Assembly (NCBI GenBank): GCA_006503475.1
Contig: RSEH01000143.1
Location: 1 to 64,000, forward strand
Direction: 5' to 3'
DNA from: Stentor roeselii
Taxonomy: Eukaryota; Ciliophora; Heterotrichea; Heterotrichida; Stentoridae
Length of the DNA: 64,000 bases
Part shown: piece by piece, positions 6,006 to 48,562 of the stretch
How positions within the stretch are numbered: position 1 is the stretch's first letter
How the letters are laid out: each line of letters begins with the position of its first letter
Position numbers and translations under genes: made by a program
The notes under the pieces: generated by a model
Seen by the model: only the letters and a program-made list of their open reading frames with translations
Database searches by the model: none
Told to the model about the DNA's origin: nothing

Positions 6006-6410
6006 TATTATTAGAATGAATTTTGGAAACCAAATAAGTATAAAATTTTCCAAATAAAATAAGTATCGCTTATAATATATAACTGAAAATCTTAAGCCTT
6101 GATGACTTCTGGGTTCCAAATGAAATGTTAAACAAGATAAAAGCTTGATTTGACAAACATTTCTCAGTCTAAGGAATTATCTTTTTTTTCTTTCTGATTC
6201 TTTACTTATTTTAAATAGATTTATAATTGTATATAATGATGATAATAATCATGTTATTAGCATGAAGATTTCCAATTGACTGCTAGATTAGTAAGCTTTT
6301 CAACCAAGTTGAAAAACCGACCATATTTTAAATTCCCAAATTCAAAGAAAATCCAAAAACAACCCCAAAACAAAAACCCCTTAAAATTCCTTAAATCAAA
6401 GCTAAATTAT
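6006..6410. other. AT-rich intergenic spacer
   Basis: This 405 bp spacer lies upstream of copy B and downstream of the surface-protein gene. It contains homopolymer-rich AT sequence, including a purine/C-rich run near 6340-6380, and no open frame with an ATG worth reporting. Confidence 0.5.
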
Positions 6411-29757: not shown

Positions 29758-31860
29758 TTATTTCTTATTATTTTTAGTCTTCGTGCAAACTTTGCAGAAT
29801 TTTTCTTGAGATATGAGAAAAACATTGCAAGACTGGCATTTTGACAGAGAATGATCAGGGATTTTTATCTCTCCACATAATGTGCAAATAGAACCTTTGT
29901 TATTGGAATAGTGAATCTGGTGATATTGGATGAACTTCGCTGGATTTTCTGAAATTTCTAAGATTTTTATTGGAACCTTGTCACTTGCAAGTGGATGTGG
30001 GGTCAGTTTTTGACATACAATACAAATAACTTTATTTCCTTGTATTTTAAATTCATTTTTAGGGTCTGTCGAGCATTCAAGTTTGCAGAACTTCGCTGAA
30101 CAGTGTTCGCATTGGACCAGATCAAACTTTTTTCCACATTTACAACAAAATTGATTGAATTTAGTATAAAATTTTAAAATCATTTTTTTTTCTGAAGTAT
30201 TCATTGATTTCTTATGCATTCGGCAAGGTTGATTTATTTTTTCTTTCAGGTCAGGAAAGTTAAGATCGAAATTCTGTAAATAATTGACTTTACATCCACA
30301 GCATAAATAAATAAAATAACTTGAATTCAGTTCTTCACATTTTTCAGAAAAATTTTTTTCTAGGTTTTTTATTTCTTGATTGTTTTCAATTGAATGATCT
30401 TTAGATTCTTTAATGTAAATCATCATTTTCTTAGGTTGGGATAAAGAGATGCAGAGAAAAACGTCGTTGTTTAAAGATTTTCCGAAGATGAACTGACTGG
30501 ATTCGGAGAAAATTTTTAGTCTTGAATTTAAGATGAAGAGCTGGTAAAACAACTGAATATTTATAAGGTTTTGGATTTTTGATAGGATGATTAAGTTCAC
30601 CATGCTTTTTTTGTTTATTATTAAGTCGATTTTTTTGTTCATTTTGATGATGAGACTGGAAACGTTTTGATTTTTCTTTTTTATTAGAAGATTATTGCTT
30701 TCCCAGAATTTTAATGTTAATGTAGATAGAGTTGTCTTTAAGTTTTCGTCAAAAATAGTAAAATCTTTAGAATTTAATAAATTGTTTGCAGATGTGGCAG
30801 GATTTAACGAGTAACTTGCGGAAGGTGCCGGAATAATCAATATAGGAGCAACTTTGCTAGTTTTATGTGAAATTGGTTGATTAAGTAAATCTAAATCAGA
30901 ATTTTTTGAATTGAATGAAGTCCTGATGATAGCATCTGGGGATTTAGTGGATTTAGAATCGAATTTATAATTATTCACTTTTTTTCCCTCATAATCCAAG
31001 ATACCATTATTATTCGAATTGATCAAATAAATATCATTAGGCGAAATCCGATTCAAATTTCCCATTGCAGAAGATTTATTTCCAGAACATTCCCAACAGT
31101 TTCCATTTTTATGACTACCACAAAAATCTAACTTGCATTCCTGGCATTTTCTTTTAGATTTATTGTCACATTCATAGCAATTATCATAAATTTTTAAATT
31201 TTTATATAATTGTTGTCTTTCTTTCTCAAAAAGTTCATTTTTACATATGGGACAGTTTTGCAATTGAGACTTGTAAAAATTTTTCTGACCATTAGGGACA
31301 ATAAAAGTTGTAAAAGAGTCTCCACAATGAAGGATTTTTTTAGATTCTGATTTTAACTCAAAGCTAAGATCTATTGAATCATTATATGTAATTGGGAATA
31401 GCAAGTAATATTTAAGTCCTGATGATCTTAAGTACAGGGTAAAAGATTGAAGAGTCTTATTTCCATATATATTTAAATTATTCTCTGAAAGGACTGAAAA
31501 AATTACCCCAAAGAGCGAAGCCACTCTAATAAAGATTTTTTGAGTGAAAATTTTAAGATTTGGACTTGAGGATAAAAATTCTGAATCGATTTTTTGAGAT
31601 AGTTGAGATGAAATTGAATGAAGTTGTGACTTGTCGAGGGTCTGAGGATTCCAGTAAAGGGTGTAGAGGGTGATAAGGTCTTGGCAATAGGGGGAGTTTT
31701 TCAATATTTTGTCATTAAAGACTTTTGGAATGTTATAAGTGACTATGTAGTCAACTATTCCTAGGATTAATGATTTTGTTAGATCTGTTTGACTAAATTC
31801 GGCTTCATGTGAAAAAATGTAAAAGGTTTGAAGGGGTAAACTTAAAGGTTTTTTATCCAT
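29758..31860 (-). CDS. Zinc-cluster / OTU-like-module family, array copy 1 (long form)
   Basis: This encodes 700 residues. The N-module (about 10-190) ends in a beta-alpha-beta pattern with a YG turn (SENNLNIYG) and LLFP. It is followed by HCG...CPIC and then an AN1-like finger, C-x2-C-x7-C-x2-C-x4-C-x2-H-x5-C-x2-C (CYEC...CQEC...FCGSH...CWEC). After a polar linker comes a second, diverged copy of the module (about 370-480), then a C-terminal zinc region: CGC, C-x2-C, CEHCSAKFC with a following C (MYND-like half), CIVC, CTLC, CQSC and CKVC. No catalytic Cys-His pair is seen in either module. The family is unknown to me; a ubiquitin-related binding role is inferred from the zinc fingers and OTU-like pattern. 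It lies 220 bp from copy 2. Confidence 0.8.
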   Translation of the reverse strand: MDKKPLSLPLQTFYIFSHEAEFSQTDLTKSLILGIVDYIVTYNIPKVFNDKILKNSPYCQDLITLYTLYWNPQTLDKSQLHSISSQLSQKIDSEFLSSSPNLKIFTQKIFIRVASLFGVIFSVLSENNLNIYGNKTLQSFTLYLRSSGLKYYLLFPITYNDSIDLSFELKSESKKILHCGDSFTTFIVPNGQKNFYKSQLQNCPICKNELFEKERQQLYKNLKIYDNCYECDNKSKRKCQECKLDFCGSHKNGNCWECSGNKSSAMGNLNRISPNDIYLINSNNNGILDYEGKKVNNYKFDSKSTKSPDAIIRTSFNSKNSDLDLLNQPISHKTSKVAPILIIPAPSASYSLNPATSANNLLNSKDFTIFDENLKTTLSTLTLKFWESNNLLIKKKNQNVSSLIIKMNKKIDLIINKKSMVNLIILSKIQNLINIQLFYQLFILNSRLKIFSESSQFIFGKSLNNDVFLCISLSQPKKMMIYIKESKDHSIENNQEIKNLEKNFSEKCEELNSSYFIYLCCGCKVNYLQNFDLNFPDLKEKINQPCRMHKKSMNTSEKKMILKFYTKFNQFCCKCGKKFDLVQCEHCSAKFCKLECSTDPKNEFKIQGNKVICIVCQKLTPHPLASDKVPIKILEISENPAKFIQYHQIHYSNNKGSICTLCGEIKIPDHSLSKCQSCNVFLISQEKFCKVCTKTKNNKK

Positions 31861-32080
31861 TTACTATAAAATCAAGAGATTCTTGCATGAGATTAAGTAG
31901 ATTATTTCCTGGGAAAGTTAGTATTTTTACTTTAATTAAAACATTTATTATGATGAAATTTGTAGACTTTATGATATTATGGGTTTTTTATTAAATAATT
32001 CAAGTTTTCCTGATTTCTTAGGATTAAGGTAAGATGATAGTGATATTAGGTCTTAATATCTGCATAATAATTTAACTAAT

Positions 32081-33991
32081 CTATTTTTTCTGACAAATCC
32101 TACAAACCCCTTTGATGTTTGAGCTAAATATTCCACATATTATGCAGAGCTTTTCTCTTGGACTTTTGCTGACATCCAGAGAAGTATTTAAAAAGCTTTT
32201 ACTTTGAAATAAGCTAGAATCTGCATATATATGAGTTTCCACTTCTATTTTTCGTATTTCAATTGAATCTCGCAGTTTTTCACCCAACTTATTCTTACAA
32301 AAGGCACAAATATTTGTACTCACTTCTCGATCTTGCATTAAATTAGAGTAATCCTCACAGATATCGCTGCAGTGAGTGTTTTTACATGATTGGCATATTA
32401 TAAAGTCGGAATTTTTTGAATTGCAAGCTGAACAACCTTCATGAAAGTTCGGAAAACACTTTAAAACAATGTCAAGTTCTAATTTATTCGGATTTTTTTT
32501 ATGTGTTTCGCATTTTAAGGAGAATTTTGCATATAAATCTTGGTATTTCATTAATTTTAATTCATTGAAATCGAAAAGACATCCACAACAAAGCCTGAGG
32601 AAATCTTTTTTCTTTTTTATTAGTCTTCGCTCGATTTTTTTAATACGTTTATCATCTTTTGTGAATTTATCAGGTGTGATTAATTTGAGCTGTTGTTTTA
32701 GATTCAAAAGCACCATGAAAACTCTGAAGTTTCCTTGAAATCCGTACTTGGAAACAGAATTTTCACTCTCTATTACAAATTGTATTGAAAAAGTATAAGC
32801 AAATGAAAGAAAGTTAATTAGACTTGGATTTGATTTAAATGGAGAGCTTTTATTTAACTCGATTACTGATGTGTTGAGGGATGATGCCATGATTTTTGAC
32901 TCTGATTTGAGGCTTTTTGAGGTTTGATAGGTTTTTAGTGATTTGTTTAGTTTTAGCATTGAAGGATCTGTTGAGTTTCTTTGACTTTTTAGTATATTTG
33001 AAATAATATCTGATGACAAGAAAAGTGTTATTGATTTTTGAATTGATTCCTTTTGAAGGAGTTGGTCTAAGATATAACTTAGATCGTTTCTTATTAAAGG
33101 GTTTTGTGAAGATAATTTTACTAACATGTCCTCATTTTTTACTTTTTCAGAACCCTTTGTTGGCTTATCTTCTCCCAAACTCTTTTTTTCCCCTTCATTA
33201 TCATTTTTATCCTTATTCACTTCTTTAGATTTCTTACATAAAATGCAAGAAATCTTCGGTTGATGATCCAAGCAGAAATATTCATTGCAAAATTGACATT
33301 TGAAATCTTTAGCCTTATTACAATAAGTACAAGGATGAGCATTTCCTTGATGTTTCATTTTTTTCGCTTTATGACCAGGAATTTCTAAGAAATAAGCTGA
33401 TTTATAGCAAATTTTACATTTCTCTGAATAGTTTTTATCTGATAATTCATGCCCACAATGTCTTAATTTTACTAGATTCGTTTGCATGTTCATAAGCAAG
33501 TCATCTGAAATATGATAATAATTTTTAGGAATAAGTATATAAAAGTTTGATGAATTGTTGTAAAGCCAAATAATTATCATATGTTTAGAACCTTTTCCAA
33601 AAGTTTTTATTTGTTTTTTTGATATTTCTTTGAAAACAACTCCGAAAATGTTCGCTATATTAACAAGGACCTTTAAATTGTAGACTATTGGATTATTTTT
33701 AAAGTTTTTAAGAGTATTAGAGATTTCTGTTGAAATGTTGTTGAAGACTGCATCGTTTAGAATATTTGGGTATCTGTGAAAGCTTCCTGAGGTTGATTGA
33801 AGAAAGGAATAAATTAGATTTTTGAACGGGGTAAAATGAGTTATGTTGAAAGTAAGGGCGATTTGGTATCTATCAAGGTATATGGCGATTGAAGATAATA
33901 AGCCTTGGATAAGAGAGTCTTGGGGTATTTTTAGTTCTTCTTCAAAGTATTGATCTAAGGGAGGATGGCTTTTTATGATTTTATGACTCAT
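32081..33991 (-). CDS. Zinc-cluster / OTU-like-module family, array copy 2 (long form)
   Basis: This encodes 636 residues. An upstream in-frame ATG (34042) would add 17 residues. I prefer 33991 because it places the conserved [QN]YF motif at the same distance from the start as in copy 3. The order is N-module (KVLVNIANIFGVVF, then TFG and FYILIP), RHCGH with C-x2-C, an AN1-like finger (CTYC...CQFC...FCLDH...CILC), a charged linker, a second module ending in a YG turn (SVSKYGFQG), and a C-terminal zinc region with CCGC, CSACNS, CQSC, CAFC, CIICG and CRIC. It is arranged head-to-tail with copies 1 and 3. The linker (about 250-330) is Lys/Glu/Asp-rich and probably disordered. Confidence 0.8.
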   Translation of the reverse strand: MSHKIIKSHPPLDQYFEEELKIPQDSLIQGLLSSIAIYLDRYQIALTFNITHFTPFKNLIYSFLQSTSGSFHRYPNILNDAVFNNISTEISNTLKNFKNNPIVYNLKVLVNIANIFGVVFKEISKKQIKTFGKGSKHMIIIWLYNNSSNFYILIPKNYYHISDDLLMNMQTNLVKLRHCGHELSDKNYSEKCKICYKSAYFLEIPGHKAKKMKHQGNAHPCTYCNKAKDFKCQFCNEYFCLDHQPKISCILCKKSKEVNKDKNDNEGEKKSLGEDKPTKGSEKVKNEDMLVKLSSQNPLIRNDLSYILDQLLQKESIQKSITLFLSSDIISNILKSQRNSTDPSMLKLNKSLKTYQTSKSLKSESKIMASSLNTSVIELNKSSPFKSNPSLINFLSFAYTFSIQFVIESENSVSKYGFQGNFRVFMVLLNLKQQLKLITPDKFTKDDKRIKKIERRLIKKKKDFLRLCCGCLFDFNELKLMKYQDLYAKFSLKCETHKKNPNKLELDIVLKCFPNFHEGCSACNSKNSDFIICQSCKNTHCSDICEDYSNLMQDREVSTNICAFCKNKLGEKLRDSIEIRKIEVETHIYADSSLFQSKSFLNTSLDVSKSPREKLCIICGIFSSNIKGVCRICQKK

Positions 33992-34119
33992 TTTGATTGA
34001 AAAATTATAACAATTTTTCCATATGATAAGACATGAAATCATTGACCATGCTGCTAATCGTTTTTTTAATAGCTTTCATTTTAGTTTAAACAGTAATCAA
34101 CTTTTATGAATTAAATTAA

Positions 34120-36321
34120 CTACTTGCTGTTAAGTCCTTGATACTTGCAAATTTTGCATTTTCCTTCAATTTTGGCTTCGAATTTTTTGCATACAAGGCA
34201 TTTAATATCTCTTGTTTCAGTCGATATTATTCCATTATCACCTCTTCCGGTCAAGGCTTCTTCATTCATATCCAGAATTTTAATTTCAATACTATTGATA
34301 ACGCCACTGATGTTCAGTTTACTTTTGCAGACAATGCATTTTATGATTCCATTTTTATCTGGATTGAATTTGTCTTGAATATCATCAGAGCATTCTTCAT
34401 CACAAAATGAAAATTTACAAACAGAACATCTGATAAAACTTTTATTAACAAAATTACACTTACAACAGCCAGCATGATACATATGATAATTTTCAATAAT
34501 AAATTTTTCCTCAAACTTTGAAAGTTTCTTATTATGATCATTGCATTGAATTTTCTTAATTTCAATGAAAGTTTTATTGAAAATAACCTCTCTACTAATT
34601 TTACATCCACAAATAAAGTAAACATTATTTTTTCCTTTATTTTCTTCATCAATTTTTTTTAAATGATTCTCAATTTTCCGATCAATAATTTTTTTAAATT
34701 CAATTTCTTCTTTCCTTTCACTTTTTATACAAGTTGTAGCATTCGTTGATTTTTCTTCAATAAAAACATGCCACCATCTATTATTTTTAAAACTCTTTCC
34801 AAATTTTATCAAACTTCCTTGATGTAAAACAACGACTTTAATCGATAATAAATAAACCAAGTCCAAAAACTGCAAATATTTCGGTTGTGCATTTTTCCCC
34901 GAATACTTCTTATCAATCTCCGTCATTATTTCCTGAGAAATCGGGTCTAACTTCGTCTTATTCTGATTATTTATAACATTTTGAATAACCTGAATAATTC
35001 TTCTATTTTTTCTTTGAATTTTTTGTGAAACCAGTTCATTTCTATTAGAAGGGTTCGACAAGAAAGCTCTTAAAATTTTATTAACAGAGATATCCATGAA
35101 AAGTTTCGGTTGAAATTTTTTTAAGAACTTCGAACTCGACCTGCTTGAAAAGCTGATAAAATCCGGATCATTATTCACCAGGCCCTGCTGAATAGTCCCA
35201 GGTGGTTGAGAAGGTGAAGCGGATACTGCATGATGAGTTGTTCCTTTAGGAGGGTCAAACGGCAGAGGATTCAGTCCATTCGGGTTGAAAGGGTCTTGGT
35301 CAAGGAGAATGTCTGGATTTCCACCACAGATCAAGCAAAGGTCGACTTGCTTGTGATTATCACAAAAAAAAGTATGGCAAGAAGAGCATTTATTTTTCCT
35401 TGATTTTTTACAGTCAGAACAATTTTTAGAATTTTTGTTGTTTGCCTTAGGCGGCGCATGGACTGGGTTCAGGTCTTGAAATGCCTCTGGGCTCTTTATT
35501 ATAGCCTGGTTCAATGATGGCTTCTGAGGTTTGTGATTAGGTGCCGGGTTTTTTATATTAGGAGAAGGCTGGTTCAATGCTGGAATATTAGGGATTTTAT
35601 TAGGTATTGCTGCAGGGTTCATCAAAGCAGGGGGTTGATTCACTGCTGGATTTTTAGGAATTTTATTACCAGCTGAAGGGTTATTTAAGTTGATTATTTT
35701 TTTTTCTAATTGATAAGGAACCTGGGAGCAGTCTGCACATTTTCCTGAGTTTAAGTTGAGTTTACTTAGATCATGTCCACAGTGAATAACCTTTTTGGCA
35801 TTAACTTGGATATAATGAAGAAAATTCGGATCCATGTTATAGTAGTCTAAAGGAAATACCATGTATTCTCCATAGTGACATGTGTAGATATAGATGTAAA
35901 TCGAGGTATTTGAAATACTTCCATAAACTTGTGAAGAATTTTCTGAAAAAACTTTAAAAACTGCTCCAAAGATATTTGCTATTGTTATAAAAATTTTATG
36001 CCTGAACATCTGAGACTTTTTGCTGAATCTAGCTAATTCTTTTTCGATATTTCGAGCTAGGTTCATTGTGGCAGGCTCGTCTATAATATAGGCGATTCGG
36101 TCTTTGCTGTTTATGAAGCCTTGGCCGAAAGGAATAAGATTTTGACACATTTCATGAGATGCGATCTTTTTTTGATTGTAATTTTTATTCAGTTGATACC
36201 TGTCAGTGTATAAAGCGACTGAGGCAAGAAGACCTGCTGTGAGTTTGTCTTTTGGTATCAAAAATTCGTAGTCGAAGTATTGACTAAGAAATTGACTGCT
36301 TTGTATCAGTTGATTTGTCAT
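34120..36321 (-). CDS. Zinc-cluster / OTU-like-module family, array copy 3 (long form)
   Basis: This is the longest member, with 733 residues. The N-module (about 10-190) has KIFITIANIFGAVFKVF, a VYG turn and YMVFP, then IHCGHD with C-x2-C. A Pro/Asn-rich linker of roughly 110 residues contains repeats of the type P-x-x-N-Q-P. Next come the AN1-like finger (CSDC...CSSC...FCDNH...CLIC), a second Pro-rich stretch, the second module (KFGKSF turn) and the C-terminal zinc region: CGC, C-x-x-H, then CCKC-x8-CSVC-x4-C-x3-C (MYND-like half), CIVC, CLVC and CKIC. It is the clearest copy for viewing the architecture. The repeat linker sets it apart from its neighbours. Confidence 0.82.
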   Translation of the reverse strand: MTNQLIQSSQFLSQYFDYEFLIPKDKLTAGLLASVALYTDRYQLNKNYNQKKIASHEMCQNLIPFGQGFINSKDRIAYIIDEPATMNLARNIEKELARFSKKSQMFRHKIFITIANIFGAVFKVFSENSSQVYGSISNTSIYIYIYTCHYGEYMVFPLDYYNMDPNFLHYIQVNAKKVIHCGHDLSKLNLNSGKCADCSQVPYQLEKKIINLNNPSAGNKIPKNPAVNQPPALMNPAAIPNKIPNIPALNQPSPNIKNPAPNHKPQKPSLNQAIIKSPEAFQDLNPVHAPPKANNKNSKNCSDCKKSRKNKCSSCHTFFCDNHKQVDLCLICGGNPDILLDQDPFNPNGLNPLPFDPPKGTTHHAVSASPSQPPGTIQQGLVNNDPDFISFSSRSSSKFLKKFQPKLFMDISVNKILRAFLSNPSNRNELVSQKIQRKNRRIIQVIQNVINNQNKTKLDPISQEIMTEIDKKYSGKNAQPKYLQFLDLVYLLSIKVVVLHQGSLIKFGKSFKNNRWWHVFIEEKSTNATTCIKSERKEEIEFKKIIDRKIENHLKKIDEENKGKNNVYFICGCKISREVIFNKTFIEIKKIQCNDHNKKLSKFEEKFIIENYHMYHAGCCKCNFVNKSFIRCSVCKFSFCDEECSDDIQDKFNPDKNGIIKCIVCKSKLNISGVINSIEIKILDMNEEALTGRGDNGIISTETRDIKCLVCKKFEAKIEGKCKICKYQGLNSK

Positions 36322-36398
36322 TAAATTATATAGATTTTTTAGTTATCTTATGAGTAATTTTATAGGATTAATTGAAATTTAGATTTAAATTTTTAGGT

Positions 36399-38296
36399 TT
36401 ATTTGGAAACTGAACAGATCTTGCAGAATTCTTCATTTGTGACGGAAATATTTGGCATTTTGAACTAACTTGGTTGAAGAGGGTTTTTCTACTAGAAGAT
36501 TGAGTAAAGAACAGTCATTTACGCTCTGCATTTTCTTGTGAATGTAAACTGCTGGATTAGAAGAATCAATAAATTCTCGAACCTTATTAAAGATATTTGG
36601 ACGTGATCTTTATCTATTTTTTTTTTCTTATTACAGATCAGACAAAGTTAGTGATTTTCGATTTGTATTAGGATTGATTGCTGATTATTCTCGTATTCTT
36701 CACAGTACTTAGCTTTGCAATTTTCACAATTGATGAAATGAGTGTTTATCGCATTGTATATGCAACAACCTTCATGATGTTTGATGTTATCTTCCTTAAA
36801 TAATTCAAATTTAAGAACTTGAAGAGTTTTATTATGTTTGCAAGGTTTTTTAAAGATATCCAGAAGACCAGGGAATTCCTTCTCTCGAAGAAATTCAGGT
36901 GAATATCGACACCCACATCTAAAAACGATTTCTGTGAATTTTCTATTTGACTTCATATCATTCTTATGTTTTATTTTGCTTAGTTCTCTGCAATCATTTT
37001 CTAAATCTTGAAATTTATTTTTTTAACATCAACAAAATAATTCTCTTTTTGGCTTTCTTCACTATAAACCTCGTAAAGTTTACTTGAACTGAATTTTGGA
37101 CCAACAATGATTGTCCTGCTTGAATAAACTTTTCTGATTCTAAAGCTGAGATAAAAGCAAAGATATGCACTTTTTTTATTGAAATCGCCAGATATTAGAG
37201 AAATTTCTTCAGTTAAAGCTTTAGAAATGCCTCCAAGATTACAAACTTTAGCATGTTTGGCAAGGTTTTCAAGTAAGTTAAAAATTCTGTCGTGTTTTGA
37301 TTTGTAAGACGAGTTTGAAAGGAGCTCTCGATGATGCTGAATTGAGGTGAAAGCTTTTATTATCATTTGGATTTTTATTTTTATCATAGAAAAATTGAAG
37401 TTTTTGGATAAGTTGTCGAAATTTGCATTTTTTTTAAATAAAATACTTGTTGGACTGTTTTTTTTAACGTTTTGTATATCTGAATTTTCATCTTTATTTG
37501 AGCTTATTTTTGATAAGTCAGTTTTTAGAAATAGTTGATCAGAATAATTGCAATTTAGGTACCTTTGAACGTCTTCTGAACGTTAAGGACCTTTATGCTG
37601 TCCTATGCACTTTGGGCAAGTATTACCTTCAGTTTCAGAACTCAATTTCTCCTTACAATAATATCAAATTTTTTCAGGTACTGAGAAACTCTTTTTTGAT
37701 CATCTCTAACTGAATTGGTAGGATAACATGAAGGACATTCAAAGTATGAGAATTTCGTTGTTCCTATTGAAATAATGTTCTGACTATGTAATAGTGGATG
37801 CCCACAATGATACACATTTTTTCTCTGATAGTTAAAATAGTTTAATATATAATCAAGGTCTTGAATGATTATTTTTGGATATTGAACAAAACATCGACTT
37901 CCTTTCTGATATAATATTATAAAATACGATGGATCTTTGCAGCTTCCATATGTTTTTGTACTATCTTTAGAAATTATGATTAGATTTATAGCCATGAAAC
38001 TTGAGATAGTTATAAAAAGATTTGAATTGTAAAGTTTCTAATTGTTTTATATTTTTGTATATGGCTTCTTACTTGAGCACACAAGGCTTCAAGAATTGCA
38101 TGATTAGTGTAATCTTTTTAATAGTTTGATAACTCTTGGCCGAAGGGATGATTTTTTAATACCATTTCCATGGAACCATAACAAGATGATACTTAACCTT
38201 GTAAATTGATATTTGAATTATTAAGTCATTTATTTCAACTTGATATTCAAATAAACTTTCAAAGTAAGTGTTAAGCTCTGCTACTTGAGTATTCAT
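36399..38296 (-). pseudogene. Broken array member of the zinc-cluster family
   Basis: Reverse-strand fragments follow copy 4 along nearly its whole length. An ATG at 38296 opens MNTQVAELNTYFESLFEYQVEI, core NTYF...FEYQVEI, like the start of copy 4, and then the frame is lost. The middle N-module is readable in different frames until 37995. From 37995 to 37642 an intact frame gives the SKDSTKTYG turn, HCGH and CPSC. From 37387 to 37001 the second module is intact (GPKFSSSKLYEV). From 36956 to 36648 the zinc region CGC...CENCKAKYC is present. The end, EEFCKIC and a stop at 36399, is in yet another frame. I count at least five breaks, none explained by 15-nt introns. It is closest to copy 4, next to it, so it likely died after a local duplication. 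Confidence 0.85.
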
Positions 38297-39114
38297 ATTT
38301 TATAATTATATCGATTTTTGGATTATCTAATATGATATATCCAACAAATGGAATATTTGAGATTATTTTTGCTGATTTTAAGCTGTATTGCTTGATAGAG
38401 TAGTTAGAATTGAGGAAAGATTCAATTCTTTATAATGAGTAATAATATATAATCATGCTATAAAAGAATTGAAATAATTTTTAAGATTCTTAGTTTGTGC
38501 TAATCGTTAAGCACGCCAGATAGTCTCTGCATTATATTGCCTTGATCAAAGGAATAAACTTTGAACTTATTTATAATTATATTCCTAATTATATATTAAT
38601 CACCGACACATAAAGCTTCGAGGCAAGGGGATATATGAGAATTTTTTATGCGGTACCAATAAATTTAATTAAGTTACTCACAAAGAAATCTTGTATATTT
38701 CATTACTAAATAGAATCATCTAGATTTAATACAATTTTCTTCTTTATTTTATATAGGAAAAATTAGAATAAACTACTTTTAGATGAATTTGGAATAACTA
38801 GATACCTGAAAATTGTGTACCAAGATCGATAATTCTGAGATTTTCTGATTTGGAAGGAACTTTTACATTTGCTCAAACTGGTTTATGAGATTCATCTCCT
38901 AATTGAATTCCCAAAAAAGTCATAAATTTAAATTTATGTTGATGCTAAGTTGAGGTACTCAGATAGCACTTTTCTACACTAAGCAAAACCATTATTATCT
39001 TTTATAATGTATCAGCCAGAAGCCCAGTAAAGCTGAAATCAATCAATTTAATTATACTCATCAATCAAGAAATAAAAATCTCTCAAAGTATTATTCAGAA
39101 TCTAACTATTTCAA
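38297..39114. other. AT-rich spacer, perhaps with very old gene debris
   Basis: This 818 bp stretch lies between the pseudogene and copy 4. Short coding-like scraps appear on the reverse strand around 38790-38930, broken by stops, and cannot be assigned. Otherwise it is AT-rich and featureless. Confidence 0.4.
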
Positions 39115-41100
39115 CTATTTCCTAAAATTCCACAGATTCTGGTAATCATCAACATCCAGCCCTTGTCGATGAAAAAAATTCACAGACTGATCAAATCGAA
39201 CATCATCATAACCTTCAATAGAAATTTCCAAACTATTCTCATTATTCCCCCTGACTTTATTTCCACAAATCATACAAAAATTATCTTCAAAATTCTGAAT
39301 ATTAAAAATTTCACTTACCAAGCATTCATCAGCGCAGAACTTAGCCTTACATTTGCTGCACTGATTAAAAATCCCATTTTTTTTATTGCATTTACAGCAT
39401 CCTTCATGATATTTCGGATAAAAGTCTCTAAGCATCCTAACCTCAACTTGTTTAATTTTTTCAAAATGTTTACAATTTTCTGAAAACTTTTTTTTTATTT
39501 CAGAAAATTCGAGTTGAAAAAGATCTTCAAGTAAATATCGACAACCACAGGAAAAAACGATTTCAGGCTTTTTTTCTATTGGGTGGAATGAATTTTTTAT
39601 TTGATTTACTTGCTTGGTTTCATATGGAAAAGCGTTCAAAGGAGGGTCTATCCAAGGGTCACGGGTGACGTTAACGAAGTAAGCCTTGTTGCTTTCGTGA
39701 TTAAAAACCTCAAAAAACTTACTTGAACTGAACTTCGGCCCACAGATGATTGTTTGGTTTGAAGTGACTTTAAGTATCCTAAAACTCAAGTAAAAGGCGA
39801 GGTAGACACTATTTTCCAGGTAGTTTTCAGATATTAAAGTTATTTCTTCAACTAAAATTCGACGGATATCGACAAGTTTCACTATTTTTAGTTGTCTTAC
39901 TAGATCTTGAAGTAATGAAAAAATTAGGTCTTTCCGTGGGTTTATAGGAAAAGTGTTCAGGATTTTGAAGTGGTCTCCGATTGAAAGAAAAGATTTTATT
40001 ATCATCTGGATTTTAGGCTGAATCATTGGAAAGTTAAATACTCGGGATAAGTGGTTGAAGTTTGGATGAGTTTTCATTGAAATTTTGGTTTGGGTGCGAG
40101 GACTGTTGTTGTGAATTGGAGTTTCTTGAGTTTTTAAGAGATCATTTATATCGAGATTTTTCTTATCGAAAATGTCATCGGAAAATATTATTTCTTCAGG
40201 ATTTAGGTCAAAAGAGTTATCGCTCTCAATTGTGTCTTGTTTCTCTTTTAAACCTTCAGCCACAAAGTGGATTTCAGCGGGCTCTTTTGATAATTCTGAG
40301 CATATCTTGCATAGGTCACTTAAAGGGTTTTCAACTTCTAAAAGCAAACATTTTACGCACTTATTTTCGTTCTTTTTGTAGTTCTTTCTTGCTTCTTCCT
40401 GTGATCTTAAACACTTTGAACAGTTTTCAGATTTGGATTCCGATTTAAATATTTTTTTGCAAGTTATGCAAGTCTGCTCAAATAAATCAGCTTTAGGTTT
40501 AGGATGCTTTGATCTATGTTTTTTTTTTTTACATAAATTACATGGAATATAAGAAATTTTATTTACTGGATTTGGATTTTTTTCTGATATGAGATGTCCA
40601 CAACTATTGACATGTTTAAATTCAAACTTTATATCATCGATTATTTGATCCGGATTTTGAATAAGTCTATTTGGATACAAAATAAAATATTGATTCACTT
40701 TTTTATATATAAATGCAGCTAATGATGGATCTGTTTGACAACCATAGGTTTTCGTGCTGCCCTGAGAAATAATAATAATTCTTAAATCCAAGATATTTGA
40801 AATCATTATGAAAAACTTTGACTGATAAAGAATTTTGTTCTTTTTATATGCTGAAAGCGATTTTCTGATTTTTTTTGATAAATTTTCAATAGATTCTTTA
40901 TCTTTCAGTAAAAAATACTCATAAATCTGTTTTTTAAAGGGATGTCTGTCAATCATTTTCTTAGAGTATTCTTTATCTAACTTGTAATTGATTTTGTAAG
41001 CTGTTACAGCATAAATCAAGTTAGTGACAAAACCTGTGCGTGGTATTTCAACATGGTACGAAAAATAATTCGCTAAACCTTGATCTAAGTTCAAATCCAT
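39115..41100 (-). CDS. Zinc-cluster / OTU-like-module family, array copy 4 (long form)
   Basis: This encodes 661 residues. The N-module (about 8-185) runs NYFSYHVEIP, NLIYAVTAY, FFIMISNILDLRIIII, a TYG turn and YFILYP. It is followed by SCGH and C-x2-C, then a group of Cys pairs (CITCKK, CSKC, CVKC, CKIC) in place of the tidy AN1-like finger. The second module (about 355-475) repeats the pattern: YLAFYLSFRILKV, an ICG turn, FFEVF and AYFVNV. The C-terminal zinc region has CGC, C-x-H, CCKC-x8-CSKC-x4-C-x3-C and CMIC. The two modules align well enough by eye to argue for internal duplication. It is the nearest intact relative of the adjacent pseudogene. Confidence 0.82.
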   Translation of the reverse strand: MDLNLDQGLANYFSYHVEIPRTGFVTNLIYAVTAYKINYKLDKEYSKKMIDRHPFKKQIYEYFLLKDKESIENLSKKIRKSLSAYKKNKILYQSKFFIMISNILDLRIIIISQGSTKTYGCQTDPSLAAFIYKKVNQYFILYPNRLIQNPDQIIDDIKFEFKHVNSCGHLISEKNPNPVNKISYIPCNLCKKKKHRSKHPKPKADLFEQTCITCKKIFKSESKSENCSKCLRSQEEARKNYKKNENKCVKCLLLEVENPLSDLCKICSELSKEPAEIHFVAEGLKEKQDTIESDNSFDLNPEEIIFSDDIFDKKNLDINDLLKTQETPIHNNSPRTQTKISMKTHPNFNHLSRVFNFPMIQPKIQMIIKSFLSIGDHFKILNTFPINPRKDLIFSLLQDLVRQLKIVKLVDIRRILVEEITLISENYLENSVYLAFYLSFRILKVTSNQTIICGPKFSSSKFFEVFNHESNKAYFVNVTRDPWIDPPLNAFPYETKQVNQIKNSFHPIEKKPEIVFSCGCRYLLEDLFQLEFSEIKKKFSENCKHFEKIKQVEVRMLRDFYPKYHEGCCKCNKKNGIFNQCSKCKAKFCADECLVSEIFNIQNFEDNFCMICGNKVRGNNENSLEISIEGYDDVRFDQSVNFFHRQGLDVDDYQNLWNFRK

Positions 41101-41376
41101 TGAGATTTTATTTATAAATGGTGGTTTTCTTAGTATTTCTTATTTTACTTTAAAGTTATAAAGAGTATCTTGCATATATGTGTTATGATAATAATTGAAT
41201 CGAATAGATATTCTAATATATAAATTTAACATAAATCAAGAAGTAAGCAGATCAACAGTTTAATACAAGTTCTTAAATATCAATACTTGACTATAAAACT
41301 AATAATCAAAGCATGCTATTTTCCATTATATATTTTCTTTTCAACCTACTATATACCAATTATATCTAAATAATCT

Positions 41377-42282
41377 TCAATATATTAAGCAACAACATCT
41401 CTTTCTACATTCCGGGCATTTTATCTCATTTTGTCCTTTTGCCTTACTATTTGTCTCAAAATCAGTCAATTCCTGTTTCCTATCATCTTTTTTATTAGCA
41501 GATCTAATTGATAAATACTTAGGAAAGTTTTTTTTGCATTTGCTACAAGTTAATAAAAACTCTGGAATTGTTAGATTTTGATTGCTCAAATTACTAACAT
41601 TTCCTTTTAAACTTTGATTCTCATTTGAACCACTTTTAAAAGACCCCAAATTTGTTTCTTGTGAAAAATTGCTATTTTCATATTACCTCTTAGGAAGCCT
41701 TCCTTCACAACTCGAGCATTCTTTATACTCTGAAGGCTTGGCTATTAAAATCTCTTGTTGAACCAAAGGAGCCCCGCAGTGATGAACCAACTTCTGGTTA
41801 AACTGAATCTGATTCAAGACAACTGAAGCATCCTTGATAAACTGACGAGGATAAATAAAAAAGTACTGGTTTTGCATGTAAAACAAAAAGACTGGAAATG
41901 AATTCTTTGTAGATGTTCCGAAAGACTTCACCATGTCGTTTGAAATGACGATGAGAGTGACTGAAAAAATATTGCAAATCATGATGAAAAACTTTGTGAT
42001 TTGCAGGGTCTGGCTTTTAAACTGGCTTAATGGACTGCACATTGCTTGATAAAGGTTCGAGATAGTAAATTCGTTTGGCTTGTTAAAATAATCAAGCAAC
42101 TGCTGCGAGAATTGATGATTTTTTAATATAGCCATCGAAGGAATGAGGGAAAGTTTCAGTTGTTGCTTGTAGTCGGTTATCGCGTATATTAAATATGCTT
42201 CAAATCCCTGCTGGGGAAGATCAGCTTGTGACACGAAGAACTGAGAAAGGAAAGAATTTAACACAAAAGGTTGCTTGTTCAT
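41377..42282 (-). CDS. Zinc-cluster / OTU-like-module family, array copy 5 (short form, one intron)
   Basis: The two frames 42282-41687 and 41671-41377 join across a 15-nt intron (41672-41686) to give 296 residues. Only the N-module is present (YLIYAITDY, FFIMICNIFSVTLIVI, SFG turn, YFFIYP), followed by HHCGAP and C-x2-C, a Ser/Asn linker, and two further Cys pairs (CSKC, CPEC). The protein ends RKRCCCLIY before a TGA. CLIY has CaaX form and is preceded by basic residues and two more cysteines, so lipid modification is possible. The neighbours are head-to-tail members of the same family. Confidence 0.8.
41672..41686 (-). other. 15-nt intron of array copy 5
   Basis: On the reverse strand the sequence is GTAATATGAAAATAG, with A at position 10. 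If retained it stops the frame at once with TAA after RLPKR. Removal continues the protein as PKSNFSQE. Confidence 0.82.
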
Positions 42283-42385
42283 CGTCTATATTTATAGAAC
42301 ATGGCGATTTTATTTATTTCATCTTCTGTGACTTGAAATATTTAATCGATTCTAGCAATAAGATTATATTCTAAAACTAGTTCAG

Positions 42386-44194
42386 TTATTTTTTAATGCA
42401 AATCCTGCATATCCTTCCGTCAGTTACTCTAAAAATATTACATTTCGGGCATATTACTCTTGTTTGGGTCTCAAGTACCTTCAATAGCGGGCTTTTCGTT
42501 CGGTTCCTGGAAGGAGCTTCGACAGGTGGCGTAGTTTTGAAGTCTGAAGAAATTTTAAGGAATTTTTCATGATTTTTCCAGATTTTTTCATCACAAACAA
42601 AACATTTTTGATTATTTTTCTCTGATGGGGTACTTTCACTGCATCCATCACTGCAAAACTTCGCATTACATTTGTTGCATTGAATCTTGGAGAAGTTAAT
42701 CGCGAGACACTTGCAACAAGAGTTAATATTTGAATAGTAAAACTTTTTGAATAAGTTTAACTCGATTTGACTCGCCTTTTTACTGTGTTTTGGACATGAT
42801 GACAGGATTTTGTTGATTTCTGTCCAGGGTTTATCGTGAAAGAAGCTTTTTTTGAATTTGCATCCGCAGAGAAATACGAAAAAACTCTGAGAGTGATTTA
42901 AATTTGCTTGTTTTTTTATATTTTCTGCTTTGGCATGTTCTTCGAGAAGTTCTGCGCCTGGGTTTTGAAGGAGATTTGGGGTGAGTGATAAAAAACAGCC
43001 ATTTTCGAGAAGGATTAGGTGAAATTGATTCCTTGCATTGAAGTTTAGACCAATACGAATGAGTTGGTTATTTTGGATTTTTTTTAAATTTAAACTGAGA
43101 TAGAATAGCAAGTTAATCACTTTAGGACTAGTTCCTGATATTTGGTCTATGGTTTTAATCACTTGTTGACTCACATCAGCTAATGAAAAATCTTTCTTTT
43201 TATTCTCTGCTCCTTGTAAAGACATCAAAAGAGGGTCAAGATTTCCGAAATTTCTTATTTCATTCAAAATTTCCTTGTAGTTCAAAAGAAAACCTTTTAA
43301 AATAATATCAAGTTTTCCGGTAATCAAAGAAAAATCGAAAATATCTGGAAAAGTTTCACAGATTTTTATTTGATTCAAAGAATTTATTGTAAAACTTGAC
43401 TTAGTCTGAGGAGAGGAAAGTTGATTATCTGGTGAATCTTGTTTTTCATCTGAAATAATCTTGAAATTTTTTTCTTTTTTCGAAGTTTTAGATGTTGAAA
43501 TATTTCTTGACTGTCCTTTTTCATTATTATTCCCAGAAAGGACTAAATTACTAAAAGAGTCGTGAAATGGCTGATTGTTTAGATTAACTAGTGAAGGTTT
43601 TAACAATGATGCACAATATAAGCAGTCATTTAAAAAGTTCAGCTGGACATTCAAAATCTCTGATTCACCTGGAACTGAACTTCCACAAAAATGTGACTGT
43701 TTCAAGCCCAGATACTGCAAATAAAAGGAAAGATTTGGGGTGTAAGTTTCAGGAAATAACATGTAAAAATCTTGCAGGTTTTCTGAGTAGAGAAATATTA
43801 AAATTGAGTCTTGGTTAATCTTTCCGTAGATTTCTATATTTGCACCTGTTATTAGATTGAGAGAAACATTTAAACTGTTGCAAAGAGTAATCAAAAGTCT
43901 TGAGAAGTAGGTTTGGTTGTTTGAGGAATTTTTTAGTTTTTTTTGAACTTCTTGGGAAAAGATTTGCAAGTTTTCGATACTTGGGTTGGTTAGAAATGAT
44001 TTTAAAATCTGATTAAATCGTCCTGGAGTGCTTGGTTCTCTTGGATATACCAGACCGTAGTAGTTCTTGAAGTATTGGATAGAGTAAATAAGATTCTGCT
44101 CAAAGTAAGGATGCTCTATTAGAACTTGATATGGAAAGTATTGAGAAAACCATAATTTACCTGCTATAGGCTGTTGGAAATTTCTATTGTACAT
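42386..44194 (-). CDS. Zinc-cluster / OTU-like-module family, array copy 6 (long form)
   Basis: This encodes 602 residues. The N-module (about 10-165) has WFSQYFPYQVLI, NLIYSIQYF, LLITLCNSLNVSLNLI, an IYG turn and YMLFP, then HFCG and C-x2-C. A Ser/Asn/Lys linker follows without an AN1-like finger. The second module (about 285-400) has VINLLFYLSLNLKKI, an IGLNF turn and CFLSLTP. The C-terminal zinc region has CGC, C-x2-H, CCKC, CNKCNAKFC with a later C, CFVC, CPKC and CRIC. The last two pairs (CPKCNIFRVTDGRICRIC) close the protein as in copies 1-3. Confidence 0.82.
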   Translation of the reverse strand: MYNRNFQQPIAGKLWFSQYFPYQVLIEHPYFEQNLIYSIQYFKNYYGLVYPREPSTPGRFNQILKSFLTNPSIENLQIFSQEVQKKLKNSSNNQTYFSRLLITLCNSLNVSLNLITGANIEIYGKINQDSILIFLYSENLQDFYMLFPETYTPNLSFYLQYLGLKQSHFCGSSVPGESEILNVQLNFLNDCLYCASLLKPSLVNLNNQPFHDSFSNLVLSGNNNEKGQSRNISTSKTSKKEKNFKIISDEKQDSPDNQLSSPQTKSSFTINSLNQIKICETFPDIFDFSLITGKLDIILKGFLLNYKEILNEIRNFGNLDPLLMSLQGAENKKKDFSLADVSQQVIKTIDQISGTSPKVINLLFYLSLNLKKIQNNQLIRIGLNFNARNQFHLILLENGCFLSLTPNLLQNPGAELLEEHAKAENIKKQANLNHSQSFFVFLCGCKFKKSFFHDKPWTEINKILSSCPKHSKKASQIELNLFKKFYYSNINSCCKCLAINFSKIQCNKCNAKFCSDGCSESTPSEKNNQKCFVCDEKIWKNHEKFLKISSDFKTTPPVEAPSRNRTKSPLLKVLETQTRVICPKCNIFRVTDGRICRICIKK

Positions 44195-44291
44195 TTTATT
44201 ATGATTATAGAATGGGATTTATATGGACTTGAAAAATCAGGGTTTCTTGTTTTTAAACCAAAAATACTCTATTTCATTTATTCTTAAACTA

Positions 44292-45158
44292 TTAGAAAAT
44301 TTCACATTCACATTCTCTTGAGAAAGATTTTTTCATATCTTTATCATTTTTCTTACCCTCATCATATTCATTTAAATTTTTCTCATTCTTTTTCTTCTTG
44401 TTTTTCTTGTTTTTCTTTTTCTTCTTATTGTTTTTCCCACTCTCAAAATTTTTCCCTTGACTAATAGGAAGACCATAGATTTCATTAGCTTTACTTGTAG
44501 AGTCATAAGAAAAACCTTGATAATTTTGCATTCTAATCCTATAGCTTTGCGCTAAATAATTAGAAATCGGTTTAATTTCATATATAGAGTCTGATTGATT
44601 ACTTTTAGTAATTTCAGCTGTTAAAACAAAGTGATTTTGAGTGTAACCATTTGTATTTTGACTCATAACTCTTGCATTAAGTAAGTTCAACACGATTGAG
44701 GCATCTTGAATGTGATTCTGAGGATAAATAACGAAATAACGATTTTCCACGTTGTAGATGAAAAGTAAAAAGGAATTTTGACTACTAGCGCCATAAAACT
44801 TGGCCTTATTATTTGAGAGGACTACAAGGTTGACACTTAGAATGTTACTCAGAATTACTAAAAGCTTTGACAGGTAAAGGCTTCCTGATGTTCGATACTC
44901 GAATATTGATTCACTGATCCGTTGTGATAAGTTTTGACAACTTTGATAGTTTGGGTTGGTAAAGTAATCGTAAAGTTCTTGCTGATATGAATTTCTTTTC
45001 AGGGTATTGAAAGAAATATTCTGATTGATGTTGTAGAGTTGTTTGTATTCTGATATCAAAAACAATAATTCTGGAATTATGTTGAGTGGGTTCAGCTCGA
45101 CTTGATAAGTAAATAATTGGCAAAGGACTTGATCGATATTAAAAGGTTGTCTGTCCAT
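44292..45158 (-). CDS. Zinc-cluster family, array copy 7 (short form, polybasic C-terminus with CaaX-like end)
   Basis: This encodes 288 residues. The N-module (about 8-165) is well preserved: LLFLISEYKQLY, LLVILSNILSVNLVVL, an FYG turn and YFVIYP. The HCG and Cys-pair region that follows in the other copies is missing. It is replaced by a Tyr/Asn/Ser segment and then a strongly basic run, KKKKKNKKNKKKK. The last residues are CECEIF. CEIF has CaaX form, and a polylysine stretch before a prenylated cysteine is the classic plasma-membrane targeting pair known from K-Ras. Prenylation is inferred, not shown. This is the only array member with no zinc region. Confidence 0.78.
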   Translation of the reverse strand: MDRQPFNIDQVLCQLFTYQVELNPLNIIPELLFLISEYKQLYNINQNISFNTLKRNSYQQELYDYFTNPNYQSCQNLSQRISESIFEYRTSGSLYLSKLLVILSNILSVNLVVLSNNKAKFYGASSQNSFLLFIYNVENRYFVIYPQNHIQDASIVLNLLNARVMSQNTNGYTQNHFVLTAEITKSNQSDSIYEIKPISNYLAQSYRIRMQNYQGFSYDSTSKANEIYGLPISQGKNFESGKNNKKKKKNKKNKKKKNEKNLNEYDEGKKNDKDMKKSFSRECECEIF

Positions 45159-45478
45159 TTAGGTTTATTGGGATTTAGAATTCTGTAGGGGTGAATTTGC
45201 ACAATAGAGTTGCTAATGATTAGTGATTTATACTTTTGATCGAAATTATATTGATTAATACGACGCACTAATCATATTAAGAAGCTATTAATAGTTAGTC
45301 ATTTCTGACTTTTATAGAAATTATATCGTTGCTATCACAGAATAATTAATTAGTGATAATAATTCTTCATAGAATAAATTTCTATTGTTCTCAAAGAATA
45401 AAATTCATTGAAAGCATAACGGTGAAGAAAATCCTCAATTAAATGACTAAACAAATGAAATTAAAGAATTTAACTAAA
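45159..45478. other. Intergenic spacer with a degenerate direct repeat
   Basis: Two units of about 71 bp, beginning near 45213 and 45284, share GCTA...TTAGT.ATTT, ACTTTT, GAAATTATAT and AATCAT/AATTAAT-like blocks in the same order. They lie upstream of copy 7. No open frame is present. The repeat could be promoter-related or an old slippage product. Confidence 0.35.
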
Positions 45479-46321
45479 TTAATAAGACTTTTGCTTATTA
45501 AATAATCTTTCTGTTTCTAAACATCCTTTACATAACATGCTATTTCGATCGATAACTTCATTCAATCTGCACAATTTGCACTTTTTTAATCTTTCACTCT
45601 GATTAATCGTTGATTCTAAGAAATGTTGGCATTCATAACAAACAATCTCATGGTTATTCGCTGTGAAGATAACCGAACAAACCACACAATTTTCTTGATT
45701 TTTACTCTCAAACAACAAAGAATCTTGAGATGGAGGAAGACTACTCCGACAAAAATTGCATTCTTTATAAGGAACCATCCCAGTCCCTGAAAAATTAATG
45801 TCTATAGTCAAAGGTTTACCACAATGATGAATTAATTTGAAATCTCTTTGAATTTGGTTCAGAATTTCTAAAGGATTTTGCACATGGCCGTGAAGAGCAA
45901 GCATAAAAAACTGTCCTGTCGGGGACTTATAAAGAAAAATCGTGTTGTTTTTCAGTATACCGTAAAAGTTATAGTTTTCAGAAGTGATTAAACAAAAACT
46001 TATCCCGAGCATGTTGCTCAACATTATGAAAAGTTTTGAAATGTAAAGCTTTGGATTCATCTCGAATGGGTGTAATAAATTTTTTATCGTGATTGATAAG
46101 TCGTTGATTGTGAAATCGTTTGGATTATTGAAGAAATTTTCGAGTATTGCTTGATGTGGATGGTTTTTTATGTGATTTGTTGGAGGATATCTTTTGATTG
46201 AGTTGAAATGATGTAGATTTATTGCATGGAGTAAATTGTATTCGAAAGATATTGGGTTGATTTCAGAGACTGGTGAGAAAAGCTGAGATAGGAATTGACT
46301 GTAAGGATCTTCTGAGATCAT
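45479..46321 (-). CDS. Zinc-cluster / OTU-like-module family, array copy 8 (short form)
   Basis: This encodes 280 residues. A single N-module (about 8-165) has NLLHAINLH, LFIMLSNMLGISFCLI, an FYG turn and FFMLAL, followed by HHCGKP and C-x2-C. The C-terminal 80 residues carry further Cys pairs (CVVC, CYEC, CKLC, then C-x2-C in MLCKGC) resembling the middle zinc region of the long copies. There is no second module. Its start codon is 60 bp from that of the divergent copy 9, so both probably share one small bidirectional promoter. Confidence 0.8.
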   Translation of the reverse strand: MISEDPYSQFLSQLFSPVSEINPISFEYNLLHAINLHHFNSIKRYPPTNHIKNHPHQAILENFFNNPNDFTINDLSITIKNLLHPFEMNPKLYISKLFIMLSNMLGISFCLITSENYNFYGILKNNTIFLYKSPTGQFFMLALHGHVQNPLEILNQIQRDFKLIHHCGKPLTIDINFSGTGMVPYKECNFCRSSLPPSQDSLLFESKNQENCVVCSVIFTANNHEIVCYECQHFLESTINQSERLKKCKLCRLNEVIDRNSMLCKGCLETERLFNKQKSY

Positions 46322-46381
46322 TTTATTAATAAAGTTATCTCTGTTTCACTTAATCTAATCAGGTAATAATATATAGACAAT

Positions 46382-47386
46382 ATGGCAAGTTACAAACAAG
46401 AGACCTGGTATGACGATTTTGATGAGATTTCATTAGATTATCATCGTTTACCTGAAACAATTTATGATATTATTAAAAAATATATCATAAAATATAAATT
46501 CAGCGATCTTTCTGATTCACTCGGTAAACTAAAGAAAATGCATATCCAGATCTTTAAAAATACTAAAATTGATGAAAAATCATCAATAATAGAATTATTT
46601 TTGAATTATCAGAGATCATCTCCATTCAGAGACCCTTTAAAAGACCAGATTTTCAAATGTTGCAATTTTTTTGACATCAGGATAATCCTTATCCAAAACA
46701 ATAAAATTTTTTCATCAGGAGATAAGAGAAAAAAAACAATTTATATATTTGACAATCATCCAAACGCTCACTGCATTTATCCAATTTTAACTTCAAGGAT
46801 TTCTTACTTTTACGAGCCTCATCACCTTGTGCAGGCTCAAAGTGACTTTCTATTAAACTGCGGAAATCGCTTAAAAATGACTCAAATACTTGGTAACACT
46901 TTTTTTGAACACGAACAAAAGATAAAATCAATAAATTGTCATCAAGACTGCAAAAAAAATCGATTTGATAAAATATTTCTGATAAAGATATTTAAAAAAG
47001 ATTTTCAAGATCGATGCATCGTCTGTGTCTCCCAAGTAACCAGATCAAATTCAGTCACTTGTAAAAATTGCCAAATAAGTTACTGCAAAGGACAAAGTTG
47101 CTTATTTTCCCAAAGTATGAGAAATCAAAATCGATTTGATTGCTATTCATGTTCACAACCAATTCAAGAAAACAAGCAAAAAACCTTAAAAAAATGCGAA
47201 GAATTCAAAATAATTCAAGATAAATGCTCCTCTTGCACATCAAGTCAAGACCCGGTCAGTTTCTGTCCAACCTGCGGAAACTTCAACGTGAACCCAGGGA
47301 ACTTACTTAACTCTACCTGCAAGCAATGCAGATTTTACTTATCAGAAAGCAACGGCTTTTGTTTATCTTGCTTTCAAAATAGTTAA
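46382..47386 (+). CDS. Zinc-cluster / OTU-like-module family, array copy 9 (divergent orientation)
   Basis: This encodes 334 residues and is the only array member on the forward strand. It has one module (about 20-155): an initial helix pair, DQIFKCCNFFDIRIILI, an SSG turn, IYIFDNH and HCIYP, then LNCGN. The remaining 170 residues are packed with cysteine pairs: CIVC, CKNC-x4-C-x5-C (MYND-like half), CYSC, CSSC, CPTC, CKQC and CLSC. The order matches the second half of the long copies better than the first, so it may derive from the C-terminal part of a long member. It closes the array on the right; the next gene follows after 39 bp. Confidence 0.77.
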   Translation: MASYKQETWYDDFDEISLDYHRLPETIYDIIKKYIIKYKFSDLSDSLGKLKKMHIQIFKNTKIDEKSSIIELFLNYQRSSPFRDPLKDQIFKCCNFFDIRIILIQNNKIFSSGDKRKKTIYIFDNHPNAHCIYPILTSRISYFYEPHHLVQAQSDFLLNCGNRLKMTQILGNTFFEHEQKIKSINCHQDCKKNRFDKIFLIKIFKKDFQDRCIVCVSQVTRSNSVTCKNCQISYCKGQSCLFSQSMRNQNRFDCYSCSQPIQENKQKTLKKCEEFKIIQDKCSSCTSSQDPVSFCPTCGNFNVNPGNLLNSTCKQCRFYLSESNGFCLSCFQNS

Positions 47387-47425: not shown

Positions 47426-48562
47426 ATGTCGAGAATGCAAAACTGCAGATCATCCAACACGTCACCCCTTCCAAAGGCCGACATATTCATGAGCTTTTTA
47501 GACCCGACCCCCCGTCCAAACCCATCACCTTTGAACACTTTTTCAACAAGAACAGAATCTCCTTTAAACAAGTCAAACAAATCACTTCGAACTTCAGCTT
47601 CTCCTCAACTTGCCTCAAAGCTCGAGCTTTCCGAGAAGCAAAACCAAATGCTTCAAGAGCGAAACAAAGTCCTCATCAAAGAAAAACAACAACTTAAAAA
47701 AAAACTATCCAGAGAAAAGACTTCTCCTTTCAACACCTTCAAAAATCATGCGAAAGTCCTTACTCAAAAGACCTTCATGGAAAAATTAGTGAAAGGTGAA
47801 GAAGGTTTCAATGATTTATGTAAAAAAATCACGGGAAGTTTGAAAGTTATCAGTTGGGTTAAAGAACAACCGCAGGAATGCAGACTTGCTTTTGTCAAAC
47901 CTGCACTTGATGAGGTTTTCGCTAATTTGAATGGAATTGATGTGGAATTCGAAGCTCGGGTGTTAGCCGCACAGGAGAAGAACAGAGAAAAAATATCCAA
48001 GTTAGAAGAAATCGTTTTTAAATTAGAAAATCGTGAAGAAAGAGAACATCAAGAAGCCATTTCTGCTTTAGTTAAAAAGAACAGTGAGTTGGTGATAGAA
48101 AATTGTTTATTACTTGTGAGAAACATTTAGAAAAATATTGAAAGTCTCAAGTTTGAAGTGGAAAAACTTAAAAATCCTGAAATTCAGGAAGAATTTCGAG
48201 TGAAAATCGTGGAAGATTTCAAAAATCAACTCTTTTTGGATAAACGAAAGGAAGACCTGGAAGTCACCAGGAGCTTGATTGAACTTGAGGAAAGGTTTGA
48301 AGGGATCAAAAAATATGCTGAAGGACTTGCGAAGGAAGTTGATTTGAAAAACATTCAGATTGGAAAGTTGTATCGAGAAATCGCTGAAGGTAAACTTAGA
48401 AGTATTAAAGATAGGGTCAAAGATGAAAACCAACCGATTAAAAGAAGCTTGTCTGGAGAAAAGACTTTGAGAAATAAACCGCCTAAGCATCCAGAGGCTG
48501 GAGGTGACTTGATTTCTTATACTTGTTGCTTGGCTGCTGCTTTGGAAGATTTCTTGTTGTAA
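47426..48562 (+). CDS. Coiled-coil protein, unknown function (two exons)
   Basis: Two frames join across a 15-nt intron at 48116-48130 to give 373 residues. Residues 1-60 are Ser/Pro/Thr-rich and likely disordered. About 65-100, 185-235 and 240-320 are charged heptad-rich helices predicted to form coiled coils. Between them (about 110-185) lies a helical segment with a conserved-looking GSLKVISWVKEQPQECRLAF core. The C-terminus is short and hydrophobic. No family recognised; a cytoskeletal or basal-body role would fit the architecture but is a guess. Both halves look coiled-coil in the same phase across the splice, which supports the join. Confidence 0.82.
48116..48130 (+). other. 15-nt intron of the coiled-coil gene
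   Basis: The sequence GTGAGAAACATTTAG has A at position 10 and ends in an in-frame TAG if retained. Removal keeps the frame and joins ENCLLL to KNIESLKFE. Confidence 0.87.

Follow-up and report, generated by a model that had tools for sequence, protein, structure and literature searches.

Tandemly arrayed cysteine-cluster proteins of Stentor roeselii with a predicted OTU-like fold and without the OTU catalytic residues

The window analysed here, a stretch of 64,000 nucleotides that forms the start of its contig in Stentor roeselii, holds a run of related open reading frames (ORFs) at 29758-47386. The question raised by this locus is which kind of protein it encodes and what such a set of proteins might do.

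Layout and relationships of the array

In the ORF list of the window, nine ATG-started frames were found in this interval, all open under the standard code, as are the long genes of the window in general, and the gaps between them contain no further ORF of at least 150 aa. Combined with BLAST, this list bears out the initial annotation, which had described nine genes and one pseudogene of a single family without an intervening gene (Table 1). The array is richer in A+T than its surroundings, with a GC content of 0.303 compared with 0.35 and 0.377 in the flanks.

Table 1. Coordinates and layout of the array members, all numbered along the window.
Feature	Position	Strand	Description
Copy 1	29758-31860	-	700 aa; N-module, putative middle zinc finger, C-half module and Cys clusters
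Copy 2	32081-34042	-	653 aa; layout as copy 1; middle finger AN1-like, below cut-off
Copy 3	34120-36321	-	733 aa; layout as copies 1 and 2
Pseudogene	36570-38296 (about)	-	nearest to copy 4; broken up over several frames, with in-frame stops
Copy 4	39115-41100	-	661 aa; N-module, double CxxC region and C-half, without the final CxxC..CxxC ribbon
Copy 5	41377-42282	-	predicted 296 aa; exons 41687-42282 and 41377-41671; N-module and Cys pairs, no C-half
Predicted intron of copy 5	41672-41686	-	15 nt, GT..AG, GTAATATGAAAATAG; length and A at position 10 as in the Stentor introns described in PMC9505925
Copy 6	42386-44194	-	602 aa; N-module and C-half, middle finger absent
Copy 7	44292-45158	-	288 aa; N-module only, all CxxC lost
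Copy 8	45479-46321	-	280 aa; N-module and the same double CxxC region as copy 4
Copy 9	46382-47386	+	334 aa; opposite strand; one module and Cys clusters; distant member

Among copies 1-8, 27 of the 28 pairs matched each other in BLAST at E 0.01 or better, the exception being copies 2 and 8, with identities of about 21-37%. Copy 9 found copy 6 as its sole partner (E 4e-4 and 8e-4), and its score of 28.8 against the N-module profile was reached by none of 100 shuffled sequences. Judged by bit scores, four of the nine members (copies 1, 2, 3 and 4) have a directly adjacent copy as best partner, and the others have one nearby. A tree of the eight N-modules separates copies 1-3 from copies 4-8 (support 92/91); its end branches are long (median 1.36 changes per site) and none of the five inner branches is starred. 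These identities and branch lengths indicate that the copies diverged long ago and that the array holds no recent duplicates. This bears directly on the earlier proposal of a diversifying recognition or self/non-self system, which the tandem arrangement, the modular loss and the dead copy would suit, but for which old divergence is a poor match; we consider such a system highly improbable. Copies 8 and 9 run in opposite directions away from each other, their start codons being separated by only 60 bases (46322-46381).

The pseudogene consists of minus-strand pieces in frames 2, 1, 3, 2 and 1, an in-frame stop interrupting two of these pieces, and resembles copy 4 most closely (46% over 37019-37546). 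Candidate introns of 15 or 16 nt occur in a single linker (37726-37546) and at other places within the pieces, and none of them spans either stop or the other three frame changes. The dead copy recognised initially is therefore upheld, as three of its frame changes and both stops are not accounted for by candidate introns.

Short introns also affect the gene models. According to PMC9505925, 92.8% of the annotated introns of Stentor coeruleus are 15 nt long, and 90.9% of all its introns are 15-nt introns with a branch A at position 10. Three of the 19 window genes checked gain a 3' extension through a 15-nt GT..AG intron, each with A at position 10. In copy 5, such an intron adds a predicted exon, so that the product would grow from 199 to 296 aa; membership of the family still holds for this copy, while its 199-aa ORF gives way to the longer predicted product. 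Exon 2 alone scored 26.2 bits against the other copies, which is not significant beside the shuffled 95th percentile of 26.9, and it stays a prediction for this reason. Two flanking genes carry predicted 15-nt introns as well, at 48116-48130 and 57841-57855, which would extend them to 373 and 710 aa.

For relatives elsewhere, the genome (44.4 Mb, 522 contigs) was searched with single proteins as queries, copies 3 and 4 to E 0.05 and copies 8 and 9 to E 0.5. These searches yielded no further loci besides two weak matches of copy 9 (L062 and L063, E 0.03 and 0.10), which were rejected, as the proteins there lack the module; the copy 9 search recovered none of the other array copies. As far as four single-protein searches reach, the array is one locus. 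In a Pfam scan of the nine proteins, with copy 5 represented by its first exon, nothing rose above cut-off, in agreement with the initial view of an unrecognised family. Sequence searches of the PDB gave seven weak matches for the whole-family profile (best E 0.17, RNF4), none up to E 10 for the N-module profile, and best E-values of 0.075 and 0.061 for the Cys regions. Among the literature matches listed, no description of such a family was found.

Predicted fold of the N-module and its active site

Structure prediction, which the initial annotation had proposed as a check, was run on the N-module of copy 4 (residues 1-201) together with seven relatives, and gave a confident core with an OTU-like predicted fold. 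In this model, 143 of the 201 residues have a pLDDT of at least 70, and the core blocks mostly reach 85-94. The chain runs through a strand, a Cys-less helix, further helices and four strands, the second of which is followed by the [YF]G turn, and by eye this order fits the OTU1-like genes of the same genome.

When the model was compared with the PDB by Foldseek, OTU-fold chains made up 29 of the best 30 matches (ranks 1-27, 29 and 30) and 42 of the best 50. Some of these chains, among them 3von, Ceg23 and the protease of turnip yellow mosaic virus, are ones we take to be OTU. Individually, the OTU matches are weak (best E 0.032, E from 0.03 to 0.6, TM at most 0.43 among the matches listed), and they are not independent of each other, because a single chance resemblance to this fold would pull in all of them. 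In a library of viral structures, the best match, an uncharacterised giant-virus protein, reached E 1.7e-4 with a probability of 1.00. Four of the best 50 viral matches are named OTU or ubiquitinyl hydrolase, and some other viral polyproteins in the list presumably hold OTU domains; plainly different names occur too, among them that of a capsid protein (rank 15).

The sequence comparisons were also carried out at the profile level. The OTU profiles PF02338 and PF10275 left the array members unmatched in the Pfam scan and in genome scans with both families. With hhalign, the N-module against the OTU genes of its own genome gave probabilities below 1%, which is not significant, and its scores against OTU profiles were equalled by 1, 17, 17 and 8 of 60 shuffles, and in a second run by 1, 6, 7 and 20 of 80. 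In most of the best local alignments, the segment around the [YF]G turn nevertheless pairs with its counterpart in the OTU genes, in profile matches that are not significant. Sequence profiles alone thus do not establish OTU homology.

An unrelated alpha/beta fold, with the OTU likeness being a convergence of small folds and the proteins serving as zinc-dependent structural or nucleic-acid-binding proteins, would agree with the weak Foldseek E-values and the insignificant OTU profiles. However, it would have to accommodate a PDB list in which the top 27 chains are all OTU-fold, as well as the strength of the giant-virus match, and we regard it as unlikely. The model suggests that the N-module probably adopts the OTU fold; membership of the array proteins in the OTU superfamily is not proven by it.

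The N-modules lack the catalytic Cys and His of OTU enzymes. In all eight, the stretch that begins with the first strand and ends with helix 1 is free of Cys; copy 7 has a single Cys three columns ahead of it. The last strand contains no His in any of the eight; copy 3 has one immediately in front of this strand and copy 8 two immediately behind it. The motif D[GN][NS]C is present at the matched place in 21 of 21 Pfam-recognised OTU genes of the same genome, namely 17 of the otubain type (peptidase C65) and four others; these genes were chosen by profiles that favour an intact motif, and counts from the genome searches are lower bounds. A further candidate OTU gene, L054, was dropped, being below cut-off, with a stop and no motif. 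Taken with the predicted fold, the array proteins are best read as putative pseudo-deubiquitinases, that is, proteins with a deubiquitinase (DUB) fold but without its catalytic residues.

Among known enzymes, the OTU1/YOD1 type (PDB 4boz, 4boq and 4bos; genes of the same genome at C10 and C141) resembles the array by eye in the order of helices and strands and in the [YF]G turn, and it was matched by the N-module model at Foldseek ranks 3, 7, 18 and 19. In contrast to this type, the array proteins have neither catalytic Cys nor His, no significant sequence match and no ubiquitin-like start that could be seen; their Cys clusters are differently spaced, and a second module is often present. Otubains (OTUB1, OTUB2) were matched at ranks 2, 5 and 6 and are numerous in the same genome, but the array members differ from them in being unmatched by PF10275 and without catalytic residues.

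Cysteine clusters and the second module

Behind the N-module, which spans about 160 residues, seven of copies 1-8 have an [HSF]CG motif and a CxxC. The common architecture described initially, a module with a [YF]G turn and then [HS]CG and Cys pairs, is thereby retained for these seven, with the motif widened to [HSF]CG, but not for copy 7, which has lost both elements. Copies 1-3 share one middle finger, C-x2-C-x7-C-x2-C-x4-C-x2-H-x4/5-C-x2-C, which the AN1 model (PF01428) matches at 20.6 bits in copy 2 (E 4.9e-4) and at 13.3 bits in copy 1, both under the cut-off of 27.9. Copies 4 and 8 have in common a double CxxC region that is unlike this finger.

In five members (copies 1-4 and 6), the C-half contains a second, diverged module, so that these proteins carry an internal repeat. 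The N-module scored 31.3 against the C-half profile when copy 9 was included in the C-half set, and 24.4 when it was left out; in neither case was the score reached by any of 100 shuffles (maximum 17.1 and 20.4, respectively), and the corresponding hhalign probabilities are modest (40% and 8%). As the C-half was predicted poorly (pLDDT 42.5), its module is known by profile only. The differing layouts of the copies agree with the modular gain and loss noted at the outset.

The C-half has Cys in nine of its 11 invariant columns, the invariant residues being Cys and G, and in the Cys cluster behind its module nine of the ten columns invariant over six sequences are Cys. The invariant columns of the N-module are M, F, L, G and G. 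The invariant residues of the array are thus not catalytic ones. Because of these Cys patterns, we infer zinc binding and treat the clusters as putative zinc modules. The long intact frames and the retained clusters argue against an array in decay.

If the zinc parts were RING-like, the proteins could be ubiquitin ligases. The RNF4 match of the whole-family profile points that way, as do the Cys region of copy 8, with a sub-cut-off match to a RING-like model (E 0.0021), and the presence of an otubain-RING-IBR fusion in the same genome. On the other hand, no RING model came up to its cut-off in the array proteins, and the C-terminal cluster is rather FYVE- or PHD-like, weakly so (E 0.075 and 0.27). 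A ligase function is therefore judged improbable.

Possible roles in the ubiquitin system

The reading that we prefer, and to which we give an even chance, is that the array encodes non-catalytic adaptors of the ubiquitin system, in which catalytically dead OTU domains are carried by zinc scaffolds. An OTU-type alpha/beta fold would have lost its catalytic Cys and His and been joined to Cys clusters resembling zinc modules. Internal duplication would have produced two units in copies 1-4 and 6, while copies 5, 7 and 8 would have the first unit only and copy 9 a single one. Ubiquitin itself, a ubiquitin-like protein or an enzyme of the ubiquitin system may bind to the dead OTU surface, and the zinc modules may hold partners, so that the proteins would work as adaptors or scaffolds without catalysis. 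The ubiquitin-related role suggested initially gains a structural basis from the OTU-like predicted fold, whereas the ubiquitin binding and the adaptor role are steps that we infer.

OTUB1 acts without catalysis by occupying its partners. In a special form of the adaptor reading, the dead OTU copies would likewise regulate the cell's own active otubains or E2s, by taking up the partners of these enzymes. The intact Cys motif in the 17 otubain-type and four other OTU genes of the genome would provide such targets, but the array indicates no particular partner, and we hold this version to be rather unlikely. PMC10919355 classes about 13% of DUBs as pseudo-DUBs, with roles as (allosteric) activators of other DUBs or as scaffold parts. 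The same source describes A20 as an OTU domain with seven zinc fingers that has non-catalytic roles and whose OTU domain is an active DUB. A20 is like the array in placing zinc-type modules behind an OTU-like domain, a comparison of working mode only, and differs from it in that its OTU domain is active and single.

A more far-reaching version of the adaptor reading, which we put forward tentatively and think unlikely, is a family confined to one locus, with dead OTU domains in tandem on zinc scaffolds, that reads a ubiquitin or ubiquitin-like signal, the copies being specialised by the Cys units they have retained or lost, in the manner of pseudo-enzyme receptors. We know of no described ciliate counterpart for such a receptor set. 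If the adaptor reading is right, a family missed by sequence searches would have reused the deubiquitinase fold without catalysis and multiplied it at one locus, in a genome with at least 21 OTU genes that carry the Cys motif. It would also offer natural dead OTU modules for studying roles of the OTU fold besides ubiquitin cleavage.

The ubiquitin system of this genome is large, with 104 ubiquitin-domain matches and at least 17 otubain-type genes. At L037 (C6:123953-127573), one open frame combines an otubain domain (PF10275, E 1.9e-23), a RING (PF13639, E 1.1e-6) and an IBR (PF01485, E 7.3e-7), and deubiquitinase and ubiquitin-ligase parts are thus found within a single protein.

Elsewhere in the window, three genes for paralogous large proteins with a Cys/His start lie on the minus strand at 1-1196, 2979-6119 and 15293-18352, one of them cut by the contig start. 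Compared with the third, the other two are 65% and 23% identical, and the sole match of the set is to WD40, far below cut-off. By eye, the frame at 53873-55918 joins a ubiquitin-like start, ankyrin-like repeats and a protein kinase.
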